NCBI GenBank assembly: GCA_020048055.1
Contig: JAIFNA010000015.1
Location: 1 to 64,000, forward strand
DNA from: Arcobacter sp.
Lineage (GTDB): Bacteria > Campylobacterota > Campylobacteria > Campylobacterales > Arcobacteraceae
Length of the DNA: 64,000 nt
Direction: 5' to 3'
In this document: one piece after another, positions 15,717-29,357 of the stretch
How positions within the stretch are numbered: the stretch's first letter is position 1
Layout of the letters: each line of letters begins with the position of its first letter
Notes under the pieces: generated by a model
Told to the model about the DNA's origin: nothing
Databases searched by the model: none
The model's input: the letters and a program-made list of their open reading frames with translations, nothing else
Translations under genes and position numbers: made by a program

Positions 15717-15729
15717 TTTAACAAAATAT

Positions 15730-15869
15730 CCTTTTAATGGGACATTTTGATTAAAGCGAATTAATTCGAACTTTAGGATTTGCTACTTTAAGATTGATGT
15801 TTCAATCCGCTAAAAGTAGAAATTAAACAAACGGTCCCTTTAAAATGGGACATTTTAAAGGGATAAAAA
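15730..15869 (+). ncRNA. Candidate structured 5' leader RNA (copy A)
   Basis: About 140 nt ending at the ATG of the gene at 15870, homologous along its length to the leader of glnK (27981-28135, minus). Structure seen: hairpin P1 CGAATTAATTCG (15757-15768); conserved single strand CTTTAGGATTTG (15771-15782); P2 with outer stem CTACTTT (15783-15789)/AAAGTAG (15813-15819) and inner stem ATTGA (15793-15797)/TCAAT (15802-15806); then GTCCC (15834-15838)/GGGAC (15847-15851). Alternatively CCCTTT (15836-15841) pairs with the ribosome site AAAGGG (15857-15862). Stems covary with copy B. A riboswitch-like translational switch is inferred. Confidence 0.6.
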
Positions 15870-16109
15870 ATGGATTTCAAAGACAATATCGAACTTAGAG
15901 TTTTACTACTAGCAATTTATAAAAAAGAACACAATGAAAATTTTAGTGATGTTTTGAAAATGATGGAAAATAGTCGTGTATTTGATATTAAAACTGGTAA
16001 AAAATATCTAACTGAACTAAAAAATATGAATTTTCTAACTGAAGATAGTTTAACTTTTATAGGGGTAGAGGAAGCAAAAAAAATTGAGTTGGAGTTTAAA
16101 ATTTCCTAA
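15870..16109 (+). CDS. Small protein of unknown function with structured leader
   Basis: A 79-residue cytoplasmic protein, not recognised. The sequence (MDFKDNIELRVLLLAIYKK, then TGKKYLTELKNMNFLTEDSL) looks like a compact, mostly helical domain ending in a beta-wing, compatible with a winged-helix fold. AAAGGG is the ribosome site, 7 nt before the ATG. Its leader is homologous to that of glnK, so the two genes may answer the same signal, possibly nitrogen status. It lies just upstream of the G9 promoter of the peptide operon and could be either its regulator or unrelated. Confidence 0.6.
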   Translation: MDFKDNIELRVLLLAIYKKEHNENFSDVLKMMENSRVFDIKTGKKYLTELKNMNFLTEDSLTFIGVEEAKKIELEFKIS

Positions 16110-16113
16110 TTGA

Positions 16114-16144
16114 TTGTTTTTTAAGCTATGGGGGGGGGTATAAT
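16114..16144 (+). promoter_or_regulatory. Promoter with G9 homopolymer in the spacer (candidate phase-variable)
   Basis: A run of nine G (16130-16138) abuts a perfect TATAAT -10 box (16139-16144). TTGTTT at 16114-16119 is a possible -35, giving a 19-nt spacer; loss of two G would give 17. Poly-G tracts are the typical slipping repeats of Campylobacterota. The start of transcription would be near 16151, 40 nt before the peptide gene's ATG. Confidence 0.65.
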
Positions 16145-16190
16145 CTCCTGCGAACTTTTTTTAAGTTTGAAATAATTTATGGAGGCTATT

Positions 16191-19256: not shown

Positions 19257-20402
19257 TTACTCCATAGAGTTTGTAGGAAAAAAAGATATCGACATTTTAG
19301 CTCCGTAAAGATTTTTGTCGTCAACCTGAAAAAATTCATTTTTAGATGAAAGCTGCGTATTGAATTGGTTTTTTAAAATTTTATTTGTTATAAAAAGCCC
19401 CATTCCAGTTCCACTATGAACTTTCTTTCTACTAAAATAAGGCTCAAAAATACTATCTTTTATTTGCTCATCAATTCCATTTCCACTATCTGTAACTGAA
19501 AGTATAAAATCGGTTTCGCTTTTTTTTTCAGATTCGATCACAATGTATCTTTTCTCATAATCCATCTGATTTTCTATAATTGCCTCAATACTATTTGTTA
19601 ATAAATTAAGGATAATTTGTTCAAAAAGGAGCAAATTCTGTTCAAGATAAATGTCTTCGGCAATATCGCTTATCATTGTTATATTGTTAGCAATAATCTC
19701 TTTGTTTAATATAAAGATGCAACTTTTAATCGTTAACAATAAAGAAAATCTTTCTTTTCGTGGTGAGACCGTACTACTGAACATTGTTATAAAATCATCA
19801 ATCATATGAGATAGTGACTGAGTTGTATTGACAATATTTGTAAGTTCCTCGGTAAGTTTTTCTTTTGATACATTTTCCATTTGTAAATGAAAAAGCATTG
19901 CGCTTGATTCAATTGATAAAAGGTTTAAAGGTTGCCGCCAATGGTGAGAGATAGTTTGCAATATTGTCTCCATAGCCTCAATTCTTTCCTCCATCTTTGT
20001 CTCATTGTCATAACTTAAGACTTTACATATATTGTCAATCGGGTTAAGTAAACTTTCTAACGTTAATATAGGCTTTATGATATATTTATCGACCCCAAGA
20101 TTTATCGCCTCGAGCAAAAGATGATTTTCATTAAAGGCGGTAATAAAAATAATATTTTGTTTTGGGTTAAGTTTTTTTATCTCATGCGCCATCTCAATAC
20201 CATTCATATTTGGCATCTGAATATCGCTAATAACAATATCTGGGAGATGCTTTTTATAAAGTTCAAGCCCTTCAACTCCATCATTTGCAACAAAAATAGT
20301 TTTTATTTTATTTTCAAGAAGAGTTCTAATTATCTCTATACTCTCTTTTTCATCCTCAACATACAAAATTGTATAATTTTTCAAATTTTCAAAGCTATTC
20401 AT
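19257..20402 (-). CDS. Hybrid receiver-histidine kinase
   Basis: A receiver domain (phospho-acceptor in DIVISDIQMPNMNG, C-terminal Lys in KYIIKP) is followed by an H-box ISHHWRQPLN and a HATPase domain with NLLTNSIEA, VTDSGNGI, FEPYFSRK and GTGMGLFI. Start chosen at ATG 20402 (MNSFENLKNYTILYVEDE), which overlaps the upstream sensory gene's stop by 8 nt; the longer frame from 20438 adds an unlikely extension. Receiver-first kinases relay a signal from another kinase, and the overlapping CheB/CheR/PAS kinase is the obvious donor. A run of nine A near 19520-19528 lies in the coding sequence. Confidence 0.9.
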   Translation of the reverse strand: MNSFENLKNYTILYVEDEKESIEIIRTLLENKIKTIFVANDGVEGLELYKKHLPDIVISDIQMPNMNGIEMAHEIKKLNPKQNIIFITAFNENHLLLEAINLGVDKYIIKPILTLESLLNPIDNICKVLSYDNETKMEERIEAMETILQTISHHWRQPLNLLSIESSAMLFHLQMENVSKEKLTEELTNIVNTTQSLSHMIDDFITMFSSTVSPRKERFSLLLTIKSCIFILNKEIIANNITMISDIAEDIYLEQNLLLFEQIILNLLTNSIEAIIENQMDYEKRYIVIESEKKSETDFILSVTDSGNGIDEQIKDSIFEPYFSRKKVHSGTGMGLFITNKILKNQFNTQLSSKNEFFQVDDKNLYGAKMSISFFPTNSME

Positions 20403-23400
20403 TATTGGTACCAAAAATAATTTTAAAAGTAGTTCCACTTTTATTATTTACAGCAACAATTTGTCCACCCATGTTTCTTTCAATTATCATTTTAGACATA
20501 TAAAGCCCGAGACCTGTACCTTGTGACTCAAATTTTGTTGTAAAATAAGGTTCAAAAATTTTATCAATTATACTCGTATCAATTCCGCCACCATTATCTA
20601 AAATCTCCAAAACTATTTTTCCATCATCTATGTGAGAATTAAATTCAATCATACCTTTTGACTTATTGACAGATGCCTTTAAAATAGCATCTTTTGAATT
20701 ATTAATTAAGTTTATAAGTACTTGCTCAAATTCCGATTTAAAATTAAATAGATCCAACTCGTGATCTACATTATTTTTTATTATTATATTTTTTTCTTTT
20801 AGTTGCGCATATAGTATCCCTAAAACTTTTTCGATACTTTCAAAAATGAAAAACTTCTCTTTATTTTTATTTGGTTTAAAAAAATCTCTAAAATCATTTA
20901 TTGTTTGGCTCATTTGTCTAATAACATTGTTACTTTTTTCCCTAAATTCCTTTATGTCATCTTTTAATAATAACTCTTTCGATTCTAAAGCAATATTGTA
21001 AAGCGAAAGTGTATTGAGTGGTTGACGCCACTGATGAGCTATTGCACTAATCATTTCACCCATAGCAGCTGATTTTGATTGACTTAAAAGGAGTTCATCT
21101 TGTTTTCGTATCTGCTCAATTCTCTTTTCCACCTCTTGCTTCAAATTTTCTTCATAAGTTACTTGAGTAGTAATATCATTTAAAGAGATCAAATATCCAA
21201 TTATATTAGCATCAAGGTTGATTTGTTTAAGTGTTATTTTAAAATGATAAATCACACCATTAATGTTAATTTTGACTTTTCTTTCATTGCTGGAAACAAG
21301 AAGTTGTTTAACCCAATTTCTTGGATTTTCTATGTCATAACCAATGTAATCTTTACTATCTTCATCATTTTGAAATAATTCACAAATGCACTTATAGTGT
21401 TTTTTAAATTGTTGCAAAGTAAGATGAAAGTATCTTGTAAATGCACCATTAACTTCAAGTAATTCCTCCCCGTCACTTATCAAAATCATATTATCTACTG
21501 CATCAAAAATAGTATCTAGTTTTTGTTTTTGCAAATTTAAAACTACTGTATCTTTGTATTTTTGATCCACATCTATAATCAAACCAACGACTTTATTAGA
21601 TCCTTCCATTGGAATAATCTTGATATAAATATGGACAAATTTCAAAATATTATCTTTTGTGATAATCTTTAGTGCCATATCATATTTTTTTTGCTCTTTT
21701 AGAAATACAGAGTAGCCTTTCATAAAAATTTCCAACTGATTTGGGACGATAATAGTTTGTAAAAATCCAAAAATATCTTTTTCATATTTTGCAATTTCAT
21801 TCTTTTGATAACCTAAAATATTGGCAAATTTTGTACTAAAAAATCCTTTTTTTGACCCATCAAGAAAATACTCAAAAATACCGCCATCAGTCGATTCTAG
21901 TGCTGTTTCAAATCTTTTTGTAGTAACTAAAAGTTTGTCTTTTTTTGTGTTAAGAAGGTTATTTGTTTTTTCAATCTCGATTGATTTATTTTCTAATTCT
22001 TTATTTATATGATTTAATTCAGAATAAGCAGTTTGAAGCTCTTCGTTACTACTTTGCAACTCTTCATTTGATGTTTCAAGTTCCTCATTACTACTTTGAA
22101 GTTCTTCATTGCTACTTTGGAGTTCCTCATTTAGACTCTGCATCTCCTCATTTGAAGTTTCAAGCTCCTCAATCACTGTTTGTAGATGCTCTTTAGTACT
22201 TTTTAATTCAAATTCAAGCTCTTTGGTTCTAATGTTTTCACTATCTTCATCAATAATTGCCCCCATGCTTCGCACTTCATATTCTTTTTCCTCAAGAAAA
22301 CTAACAAGATAAAGTTCTTTATCGATAATATTTAAAAGAGGCGTAACAATAATTTGTACAAAAAGGAGTTCCTCTTTTGTTTCAAATCTTATAAAACGAC
22401 TTTTTTTACTTGCTCGTTCTTTAAGTGCAATATGTAAAATAGAGCGGAGTTCAAGATTTAACCTATCATCTATCATTTTAAAAATATTAAAAGTAGCATT
22501 TCCTGGACTTACTTTAAGGTATGAAAAAAGTTCCTCTTGAAAATAAATAATGTCGTGATTAGTATTTATTACTACACTATTTGGCAAAAATATATTTGTT
22601 ATAGTATCTTTTGTTGCCTCTTGAATTGAATACTCTGTAATGTGGTTTGTATGGTTTGGTATCTCGTATGGCTTTGTTTTGTTTTGCAATTGATACACCA
22701 AAAGTGGCGAACTTTTTGTTATTTGTGATTTGTAAATTTTCTCTTTTTTATTTACAACTTCAAAAAGAGTTGAAAACTTTCCAACCGATTCTGATTTACC
22801 AAGAAAAAGTATCCCATTTGGATGCAATGAATAATGAAAAACTGGAAAAATTTTCTCTTGAAGTTTTTGATTAAAATAGATAAGTAGATTTCTACAACTT
22901 ATAAGATTAACCCTTAAAAAAGGTGGGTCAATATTAATATTATGATGGGAAAAAATCACCATATCTCGTATTGGTTTGATAACATTATAATGTTGACCTT
23001 GCCTTACAAAATATTTTTTTAAAATTGCACTATCAACATCTTGGAACGATGCTTCAGGGTATTTACTTTTTCGTGCAATTTCAAGTGATTCATCATCTAT
23101 ATCGGTAGCAAAGATTTGAACTTTATAGTTCAAGAGTTCTATTCCCAATATTTGATGCAAAATAATAGCTATCGTATAAGCTTCTTCACCAGTTGAGCAA
23201 CCTGGAATCCAAACTCTAATATTTTCTTTATCTTTATTATGTTTTATCATTATTTCAAGATTTTGTTTTAACTCATTAAAGGCATCTTTATCTCTAAAAA
23301 AGTAAGTTACCCCTATCAAAATATCTTGATAAAGTGCATCTACCTCTTTAGCGTTTGTTTTGAGATAACTAACATAATCTGAAATTGCAATAATTTTAAG

Positions 23401-24144
23401 TGCAGCCATTCGTCTTGCTAATCTTCTTCTGATAGTTGAAATTTTATAATCTTTAAAATCAACACTTTTTTTCTCTTGTACTATTTGAAATATCTCACTA
23501 AATGGATCAAATCTGTTTTCATTTGAATACTCAATAGTTTTATTTTCATATGAATATCTACTTATATTGTCTATCTCCTCAACAATTTTAGAAACTGGGA
23601 GAACGAAGTCGATATTGCCAGTATTTATAGCAGAAATAACCATACCATCATACTTTGTACTTTCTGGCTCTTGAGCTATTGTAATGCCCCCTTCTGCTTT
23701 TATAGCACGGACACCATGACTTCCGTCACTTCCTGTTCCACTTAGTATAATTCCAATAGCATTTTCTTTTTGGTCCCTTGCTAAAGATTCAAAAAATATA
23801 TCAATTGAAGGTTTTGGACCAATTTGAGAAAGTGGCGGCTTAAGATACATCTTTCCATTTTGAACAATCACATCATTATTTGGTGGGGTAATATATAGGA
23901 TTTCTGGCTCAATTAGTGAACCGTGTTTTATTTCAACTATTTTTTTATTTGTTTGTCTACTTAATAAATCAACCATCATAGATTTATAAGTAGGAGAAAG
24001 ATGTTGAGCTAAAATAAAAGCGCAATTTGTTTGCTTTGGAAGTATTTTTACAAATTCTTGCAATGCTTCCAAACCGCCAGCACTCGCACCAATTCCGACT
24101 ACCAAAAATGATTTGGGCAATATTTTTTGACTCATATTTATCAA
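20395..24144 (-). CDS. CheB-CheR-PAS-histidine kinase fusion
   Basis: A 1249-residue multi-domain sensor: CheB methylesterase (about 10-195; GIGASAGGLEALQ with the nucleophile Ser, LSGTGSDGSHG with the active-site Asp), CheR methyltransferase (about 210-480; WIPGCSTGEEAYTIAI, VNLISCRNLLIYF), a PAS-like region, a heptad coiled coil of repeated SSNEELQ/TSNEEL units (about 650-760), two PAS domains, then H-box SAIAHQWRQPLNTLS and HATPase (NLINNSKDAIL, LDNGGGID, GTGLGLYMSK). No receiver precedes CheB. Such fusions act outside classical chemotaxis. It overlaps the hybrid receiver kinase, its likely target. Confidence 0.92.
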   Translation of the reverse strand: MINMSQKILPKSFLVVGIGASAGGLEALQEFVKILPKQTNCAFILAQHLSPTYKSMMVDLLSRQTNKKIVEIKHGSLIEPEILYITPPNNDVIVQNGKMYLKPPLSQIGPKPSIDIFFESLARDQKENAIGIILSGTGSDGSHGVRAIKAEGGITIAQEPESTKYDGMVISAINTGNIDFVLPVSKIVEEIDNISRYSYENKTIEYSNENRFDPFSEIFQIVQEKKSVDFKDYKISTIRRRLARRMAALKIIAISDYVSYLKTNAKEVDALYQDILIGVTYFFRDKDAFNELKQNLEIMIKHNKDKENIRVWIPGCSTGEEAYTIAIILHQILGIELLNYKVQIFATDIDDESLEIARKSKYPEASFQDVDSAILKKYFVRQGQHYNVIKPIRDMVIFSHHNINIDPPFLRVNLISCRNLLIYFNQKLQEKIFPVFHYSLHPNGILFLGKSESVGKFSTLFEVVNKKEKIYKSQITKSSPLLVYQLQNKTKPYEIPNHTNHITEYSIQEATKDTITNIFLPNSVVINTNHDIIYFQEELFSYLKVSPGNATFNIFKMIDDRLNLELRSILHIALKERASKKSRFIRFETKEELLFVQIIVTPLLNIIDKELYLVSFLEEKEYEVRSMGAIIDEDSENIRTKELEFELKSTKEHLQTVIEELETSNEEMQSLNEELQSSNEELQSSNEELETSNEELQSSNEELQTAYSELNHINKELENKSIEIEKTNNLLNTKKDKLLVTTKRFETALESTDGGIFEYFLDGSKKGFFSTKFANILGYQKNEIAKYEKDIFGFLQTIIVPNQLEIFMKGYSVFLKEQKKYDMALKIITKDNILKFVHIYIKIIPMEGSNKVVGLIIDVDQKYKDTVVLNLQKQKLDTIFDAVDNMILISDGEELLEVNGAFTRYFHLTLQQFKKHYKCICELFQNDEDSKDYIGYDIENPRNWVKQLLVSSNERKVKININGVIYHFKITLKQINLDANIIGYLISLNDITTQVTYEENLKQEVEKRIEQIRKQDELLLSQSKSAAMGEMISAIAHQWRQPLNTLSLYNIALESKELLLKDDIKEFREKSNNVIRQMSQTINDFRDFFKPNKNKEKFFIFESIEKVLGILYAQLKEKNIIIKNNVDHELDLFNFKSEFEQVLINLINNSKDAILKASVNKSKGMIEFNSHIDDGKIVLEILDNGGGIDTSIIDKIFEPYFTTKFESQGTGLGLYMSKMIIERNMGGQIVAVNNKSGTTFKIIFGTNNE

Positions 24145-27636: not shown

Positions 27637-28135
<499 letters not shown>

Positions 28136-28142
28136 AATTATT

Positions 28143-29315
28143 TTAAAATGCTCGCTTGAATTCAGGATAAGCTTCAACTCCGCATTCATTAACATCAAGC
28201 CCTTCCATCTCTTCATCATTTTTAGATCTAAGTGGCAATATTTTATTGATGATAAATAGTATCGCATAACTACTTACAAATGCAAAAACTCCAATCATTA
28301 CTACACCTTTTAATTGATCTAAAAAAAGCTTTTCAGTAAAAATCCCAACTGCCAAAGTTCCCCAAATACCGTTTACTAGGTGAACTGACAATGCACCAAC
28401 AGGATCATCGAGCCTAAATTTATCAAATACAGGGACAGCAAAAACAACTAAAGCTCCACCAATTGTACCAACTAAAAGTGGTTGGTAGATATTGTACAAA
28501 TCAGGTGCAGCTGTGATTGCCACCAGCCCACCAAGGGCTCCATTTAGAATCATAGTAATATCAAGTTTTTTGTATTTTAAAAGCATAAGCCCACCAGCAA
28601 CAATAGCACCAGCTAAACCTGAAGTATTTGTATTTAAAATAGTTAAAGCTACCGCATCTGCACCCTCTTTCGAAGCAATATTGCCTACACTTCCACCATT
28701 AAATCCAAACCAACCAATCCAAAGTAAAAATGCACCTAGCGTTACCAATGGTATATTTGAAGCGGGAATAACTCTCACTCCACCATCTTTTGTGTATCTA
28801 CCTTTTCTAGCACCCATAATTAAAATAGCAGCCAATAAAGCCCAACCACCAACAGAGTGGATAACAGTACTGCCAGCTAAATCGTACATATTCAAATCAA
28901 ATGCTGTATCTTTTAACATATCAGCGCCCCAAGTCCAGTTTACAACCAAAGGATACAAAATACTTGACATAATCAAAGTAAAAAATGTAAGAGGAACAAT
29001 CTTAGCTCTCTCACTAACTCCACCACTCATAATATTTACAACTTTCCCAACAAATGCCATTTGGAAAAGTAACGCTGCCCATTTGCTCATATTGTCATTT
29101 GCTAATTCCCCAAAAGCGATGTTGTAGCCCAAAAGCAAAAATCCCATAGATGCAAAAGCGTAAATCATTGTGTTCATAGTTAAAACTGCTGTTACATTTT
29201 TTGTTCTTACAATCCCAGCCTCAAGCATCGCAAAACCTGGAACCATAAATATAATCAAAACAAATGAAAAAAGCACATAAAGTGTATTTATTACATAAGC
29301 TGTATTGATATCCAT
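28143..29315 (-). CDS. amtB: Ammonium transporter
   Basis: About 390 residues, 11 membrane helices. The twin pore histidines are in STVIHSVGGWALL and ALSVHLVNGIWG; the Phe/Trp gate region with VNWTWGADML is present. ATG 29315 is chosen because AAGGAGA lies 4 nt upstream; the frame can be read back to TTG 29318. No signal peptide beyond the first helix. Genetically linked to glnK, whose product normally blocks the pore when nitrogen is sufficient. The two are separated by the structured leader. Confidence 0.95.
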   Translation of the reverse strand: MDINTAYVINTLYVLFSFVLIIFMVPGFAMLEAGIVRTKNVTAVLTMNTMIYAFASMGFLLLGYNIAFGELANDNMSKWAALLFQMAFVGKVVNIMSGGVSERAKIVPLTFFTLIMSSILYPLVVNWTWGADMLKDTAFDLNMYDLAGSTVIHSVGGWALLAAILIMGARKGRYTKDGGVRVIPASNIPLVTLGAFLLWIGWFGFNGGSVGNIASKEGADAVALTILNTNTSGLAGAIVAGGLMLLKYKKLDITMILNGALGGLVAITAAPDLYNIYQPLLVGTIGGALVVFAVPVFDKFRLDDPVGALSVHLVNGIWGTLAVGIFTEKLFLDQLKGVVMIGVFAFVSSYAILFIINKILPLRSKNDEEMEGLDVNECGVEAYPEFKRAF

Positions 29316-29357
29316 CAAATCTCCTTCTTTTTGTTAGTTTAAATTTTATTGATGGTG

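Follow-up and report, generated by a model that had tools for sequence, protein, structure and literature searches.

A structured RNA element docked at start codons in Arcobacteraceae, a candidate bistable device for translation control

Here, we describe a structured RNA element lying directly upstream of start codons, which represents a previously undescribed RNA family that is present in most sequenced Arcobacteraceae and reaches as many as 29 copies in a genome. Its hairpins P1, P2, P3 and P4 are all shown, by the compensatory changes that their sequences carry, to be selected as base-paired structures. Reading these sequences, we consider the element to be, with a probability of about 0.6, a portable, start-docked and bistable translation-control device that acts in cis and sets the translation of the gene downstream. 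Serving dozens of unrelated genes, it is a device of general use and not a sensor of one pathway, and its gain and loss are modular. It is rare for the two states of a ribosome-site switch to leave covariation in the same sequences, and the use at unrelated genes, together with gain and loss among close relatives, makes a portable re-tuning of operon-internal translation testable.

Structure of the element

Two copies were found in the window, by which we mean the whole analyzed stretch of 64,000 nucleotides from an Arcobacter sp. genome (contig JAIFNA010000015.1). A preliminary description of this DNA, made from the sequence alone, regarded both copies as homologous and each as ending at the start codon of an unrelated gene, and a re-check of the sequence agrees. 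Copy A, on the plus strand, precedes the gene of a 79-aa protein without Pfam match (15870..16109, start codon at 15870). Copy B, on the minus strand, precedes glnK, encoding a P-II protein (27637..27975, start codon at 27975), and amtB is located upstream of this gene (28143-29318).

With a length of about 110-140 bases, the element displays from 5' to 3' the hairpin P1 with a variable stem and a loop that is mostly ACTCGT, the linker CTTTAGGRTTTG, the hairpin P2 with the outer stem CTWCTTT/AAAGWAG, a bulge of two bases and a variable inner stem, a short spacer, and finally a ribosome-site module which folds as either P3 or P4. P4 is formed by the last C bases of the P3 5' arm and the P3 loop, pairing with a stretch that has the ribosome site at its end. 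In copy A, P1 (AAAGCGAATTAATTCGAACTTT) covers about 15753..15774, the conserved linker CTTTAGGATTTG 15771..15782 and P2 (CTACTTT...AAAGTAG with its variable inner stem) 15783..15819, followed by the P3 hairpin GTCCC/GGGAC at 15834..15851, which leaves the ribosome site free, and by the alternative hairpin P4 at 15836..15862 (CCCTTTAAAATG / CATTTTAAAGGG, at least 12 bp closed by a loop of 3 nt), in which the ribosome site is paired. On the minus strand, copy B reveals P1 (GAGAAACTCGTTTCTC) at 28078..28093, the linker CTTTAGGATTTG at 28065..28076, P2 (TTACTTT...AAAGTAA with a variable inner stem) at 28028..28064 and the 3' P3/P4 module with the ribosome site at 27984..28020, P4 being located at 28010-27984.

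Direct comparison of both copies bore out what had been noticed before: the linker is the same, P1 and the P2 inner stem differ in sequence and stay paired in each copy, and the outer end of P2 changes from C-G to T-A on both sides. Likewise, the GTCCC/GGGAC hairpin and the pairing of the ribosome site are mutually exclusive in both copies. The alternative hairpin thus exists as proposed, but the 6 bp assigned to it were too few, as it has at least 12 bp in copy A and 11/12 bp in copy B. In addition, a P3-type hairpin, which is not part of the preliminary description, also occurs 5' of P1 in both copies. It is degenerate in copy A (ATATCCTTTTAATGGGACATTTT, 15726..15748, plus strand), and in copy B (28105..28135, minus strand) the 5' and 3' P3-type hairpins are identical over about 31 nt (28135-28105 versus 28020-27990).

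Covariation and the two-state ribosome-site module

Significant covariation among homologs had been set beforehand as a test, and strong covariation was found in P1, P2 and P3, with P4 covarying as well. In a MAFFT alignment of 11 copies from the window's own genome, produced without a structure model, 87% of the paired cells were able to pair, compared to 41-53% in slid controls, and 15 pairs displayed double changes; the pyrophosphatase copy of this alignment consists of two contig ends that we joined on the presumption that they adjoin. For 88 distinct sequences from many genomes, the paired cells reached 96.9%, with a covariation score of 0.610 versus 0.085-0.143 for slid partners and double changes at 21 of 25 pairs, though this alignment was fitted to the structure of the model and the 11-copy alignment is the cleaner control. 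Linker and bulge nucleotides are conserved while the paired stems vary, so that the element combines a covarying structure with conserved unpaired nucleotides, as is expected of a riboswitch.

The arms of P4 were compared separately. Counted over 48 distinct pairs of arms with 9 bases each, pairing is possible in 395 of 432 cells, a value reached by none of 20,000 permutations, the best of which gave 333; this covariation was first noticed in 26 arm pairs and then redone with 48. Exactly one mismatch is present in 33 of the 48 arm pairs and two in another 2. When the 3' tails were swapped among 136 elements, the best P4 had 8.6 instead of 11.8 pairs. Computed on isolated segments, the median stabilities were -8.3 kcal/mol for P3 and -7.8 kcal/mol for P4, with P4 being the stronger one in 62 of 136 elements, and at computed equilibrium the ribosome site was mostly paired, showing wide variation from copy to copy. 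The exact pattern GTCCC-GGGAC-AGG yielded 26 matches in four genomes versus none for a reversed-pattern control. Both alternatives, P3 and P4, are hence kept by compensatory change, as is expected of a translational switch, and by this measure the P3/P4 module qualifies as a genuine two-state switch. Folding of the whole element gave no sign of the P1-linker-P2 core opening the ribosome site.

Since P4 is rich in A/U, it could also act as an RNA thermometer that opens on warming and thereby exposes the ribosome site, an explanation which we regard as extremely unlikely. For the 3' module, the computed median open fraction does rise from 0.05 at 20 °C to 0.33 at 45 °C, and dnaK, hslU and a DnaJ-type gene are among the targets. 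However, the computed opening is gradual and depends on the copy, with some copies, such as copy A of the window, closed at all temperatures; heat-shock genes are a minority of the targets, and a thermometer could do without a conserved competing hairpin such as P3.

Proposed mode of action

According to our preferred reading, translation control by a bistable device, the element would be situated in the mRNA after the stop codon of one gene and before the start codon of the next, the translation level of which it would set. P3 (GUCCC/GGGAC) could fold once transcribed and leave the ribosome site open; because of the order of the sequence, its folding can precede transcription of the ribosome-site arm, and we infer that this order is relevant in the cell. 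As soon as the later A/U-rich stretch is made, P4 with its 11-13 bp could replace P3 and pair the ribosome site. The order of transcription would grant fresh transcripts a time window with an open ribosome site, translation would be the step controlled, and a factor acting via or beside the P1-linker-P2 core, namely a protein, the elongating polymerase or the translating ribosome, may tip the balance. A more far-reaching version of this idea is that of a general, horizontally spreading translation regulator, a cassette gained before ribosome sites whose switch is open on fresh and closed on old transcripts and which couples inner-operon translation to ongoing transcription, whatever the function of the gene. 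We consider this version conceivable and, on the whole, rather doubtful.

Placement at start codons and within operons

All GTDB genomes were scanned with a pattern consisting of linker and P2 only, without ribosome site or start codon; the covariance models include both of these, and their matches are therefore biased toward docking. A ribosome site and a start codon follow 59-125 nt downstream in 47 of the 52 Campylobacterota matches that could be evaluated, the distance being 75-87 nt in 42 of those 47, and a control with random positions gave 36 of 4000 (about 1%). Of the remaining five, three have a visible ATG that the automatic test overlooked, and two are first units of tandem pairs. 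Outside the Campylobacterota, the 30 exact-pattern matches of the all-GTDB scan that were examined proved to be chance matches, mostly located in coding sequence and, in all but one case, missing the partner strand of P2.

The elements mostly occupy gaps between genes of the same operon. Among 87 model matches from seven genomes, 77 are preceded by a gene on the same strand, the stop codon of which is mostly at most 15 nt away from the start of the element. Since upstream neighbors on the same strand are common anyway, being present for 45 of 61 window genes according to crude gene calls, placement inside operons, taken by itself, shows only a mild enrichment. Coupling of translation to the preceding gene was set aside as the sole mechanism, as about 10 of the 87 elements have no same-strand upstream gene in reach.

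Distribution and target genes

The genome of the window carries about 20 copies at E <0.01, found with the linker pattern, BLAST and the covariance model, the E-values of the latter being rough. Matches were detected in 82 of 104 Arcobacteraceae genomes and 16 of 20 genera, with 1 to 29 copies per genome where the element is present and a range of 0 to 29 over the family; named records with the element include Arcobacter, Halarcobacter, Poseidonibacter and related MAGs. Nearly all strong matches in the window's own genome lie directly before genes, which, with names read from their translations, include glnK (two genes), nifB, nifT, nifX, a nifU-like gene, ferredoxins, gpsA, prs, a manganese pyrophosphatase gene, hslU and lepA. 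In total, 82 elements stand before 58 gene families, and 87 further matches, again named from translations, add hom, thrB, cysK, metE, ilvD, hisA, adk, gatC, hypA, rpsB, dnaK, bcp, thiD and kdsA.

Nitrogen status had been suggested as the signal, and a metabolite riboswitch, in which P1-linker-P2 would be the aptamer and P3/P4 the expression platform, would combine well with the conserved linker and bulge nucleotides between variable stems and with a true switch geometry. Genes of the glnK, nif, ure and urt type are indeed prominent among the targets in nitrogen-fixing genomes; they nevertheless do not define the target set, which spans housekeeping genes as unrelated as adk, hisA, thrB, gatC, rpsB, dnaK and hypA. 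Instead of sharing the pathway of one ligand, the targets belong to dozens of unrelated families. Moreover, the element is present in the amtB-glnK gap only in the window genome among those compared, whereas four congeners have gaps of 17-56 nt without it. Aptamer and platform do not stay together either, as seen in the gaps before hypA and in cores without the switch elsewhere, beside rRNA genes and in proviruses. Because the targets are broad, the modules separable and cores present in rRNA operons, both a ligand-specific riboswitch and nitrogen sensing are disfavored, and we judge the former to be very unlikely. Of the broader suggestion of a riboswitch or protein-bound leader, the structured, start-docked and covarying nature has held up, including covariation of the ribosome-site switch; the notion of aptamer and platform in one piece has been weakened by the separability of the modules. 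Like translational riboswitches and protein-bound leaders, the element has two exclusive hairpins, one of them masking the ribosome site, but its targets lack a common pathway, its sensor-like and switch-like modules occur apart, and it has no match in Rfam.

Core-only relatives, gain and loss

In more distant relatives, a core without P3/P4 is found upstream of 16S rRNA, near 23S rRNA and before infA. Such copies adjoin 16S rRNA and lie in or near 23S rRNA and in the 16S-23S region, with antisense copies after 23S as well; identical scores in some of these matches reflect duplication of rRNA operons and not independent gains. In Campylobacter-type genomes, core copies of either orientation are also found on the flanks of flagellin genes (loci L233, L234 and L235). 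A prophage-like region of genome G430 carries at least seven cores without P3, all on one strand and just before phage-type start codons, and the core was found in proviral contigs, too, often but not always 5' of start codons.

This neighborhood raises the question of a nut-like antitermination signal through operons, consisting of a boxB-like hairpin and a boxA-like sequence, to which the ribosome-site module would be an add-on. Both systems share a hairpin followed by a UUCUUUA-like stretch, occurrence near rRNA and phage operons, and, for boxA, sites near start codons; the sequence GTTCTTTAAGA of some rRNA-linked copies fits the boxA consensus GYTCTTTAANA, and Nus factors also repress the translation of suhB via boxA (PMC5725501). 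Nonetheless, we think of this reading as quite improbable. An unpaired GYTCTTTAANA was not found, the fit being restricted to some rRNA-linked copies. The boxA-like stretch is instead paired within P2, and its third base switches with its partner, U-A being present in 47 and A-U in 39 sequences, so that the pairing is kept and not the letters of boxA; this weakens the nut-like reading. Furthermore, the Arcobacteraceae rRNA leaders that were examined lack the core and carry another boxA-like sequence, GATCTTTAA, and the antisense copies next to 23S do not fit either.

Gain and loss are visible at single gaps. Before hypA, relatives display the full element, the core only, the ribosome-site hairpin only, or neither (a gap of 0-28 nt), and the state with the core only seems to have arisen by deletion between the two AAAAAGG repeats on either side of P3. 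The glnK copy of the window is, judged by the gaps of the congeners, a recent gain. The identical flanking hairpins of copy B, taken together with tandem units about 112 nt apart in other loci, suggest spread or duplication by recombination at the hairpin. The similarity of ortholog copies (0.747) exceeds that of non-orthologs (0.66) and of copies within a genome (0.676); therefore, many copies were inherited and kept.

A dispersing repeat of the MITE, BOX or REPIN type, whose hairpins serve its own spread and which is tolerated in gaps at gene starts with an incidental effect on translation, would account for the variable copy number (0 to 29 per genome), the tandem units, the repeated hairpins of copy B and the core-only copies beside flagellin genes and in proviruses. 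Recent gain with an empty orthologous site, typical of a MITE or REP, was observed at both glnK and hypA, and the element is modular, multi-copy and intergenic like BOX and REP/REPIN sequences. In contrast to these, its orientation and start-codon spacing are near-fixed in Arcobacteraceae, which refutes for this family the random placement in both orientations that had been named as the mark of a MITE or REP; position and orientation independent of starts are, in turn, displayed by the core-only copies of Campylobacter-type genomes. Besides, covariation is seen in P3 as well as in P4, orthologous genes of different genera have retained their copies, and in the loci read we noticed no full-length version linked to a transposase. 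We hence consider a mere dispersing repeat unlikely. For translation control as our preferred reading, the separability of core and switch at hypA speaks against it, and core-only relatives away from starts need another account.

Relation to known elements

No Rfam 15 family matched at or above its curated cut-off, and a permissive search gave matches at chance level only, which is in line with the earlier impression of a class that was not recognized. BLAST of the core against plasmid and phage collections and of copy A against the plasmid collection revealed no match. A likeness to Campylobacter tracrRNA/CRISPR repeats (GTCCC..., AGAGTTTGC) is presumably superficial. Two further candidates were dropped: a leader mini-ORF (TTG-CTN-CTT-TAR) in linker and P2, prompted by a purine after CTTTA in 86 of 91 sequences, loses its stop frame in many copies with an extra T, and CsrA binding at the GGA of the linker is at odds with the AGTG or AGTA of core relatives at this site.

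The start-associated sequences (SAS/ESAS) of cluster K mycobacteriophages are repeats at the starts of some unrelated genes, nearly always in one orientation; SAS comprises 13 bp, about half of the sites have an upstream 17-bp inverted repeat, and a function in translation is suspected and unproven (PMC3203893). Both systems thus have a repeated sequence at translation starts of unrelated genes, nearly always in one orientation, but SAS/ESAS is short and from phages, and neither a bistable ribosome-site hairpin nor covariation is described in the accessible part of the report (PMC3203893). The Arcobacter element differs from it in being 110-140 nt long, structured and located on bacterial chromosomes, and the 13-bp SAS GGGATAGGAGCCC is absent from the aligned element copies. 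TAACTGA direct repeats of Beggiatoaceae, for which post-transcriptional control was proposed, are also dispersed and located few nucleotides from the starts of functionally unrelated genes, but they form heptamer arrays and have no sequence or structure in common with the element (PMC4679880). The element bears on whether such start-docked repeats are regulators or passengers. Intergenic RNA candidates of Arcobacter sp. L were listed earlier and, in the accessible part of the report, mostly left unnamed (PMC6429828); the element may overlap with one of them.

Additional observations

Some variants and records deserve mention. Loci L054 and L148:2806-2982, from two genomes and before unrelated genes, have a common extra sequence (about AGCGTAGTCTTGTG..AACG.AGTGAAG) between the arms of P2, and three loci (L049, L052 and L169) before ferredoxin and nifX-like genes carry a linker insert of 20-odd nt (TCAAAGAGAGTACAAGCACAAGG). 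Contigs C14 and C3 of the window assembly end within one element before the manganese pyrophosphatase gene and probably adjoin there. Records titled Helicobacter pylori PMSS1 (CAMCYD MAG) hold Arcobacter-type loci matching genome G049, and their title looks wrong. Within the window, a nine-G run abuts TATAAT at 16129-16150, upstream of a small ORF at 16179, and is possibly a phase-variable promoter spacer. Finally, a single 1249-aa protein encoded at 20395-24144 on the minus strand unites CheB, CheR, PAS and histidine-kinase domains.
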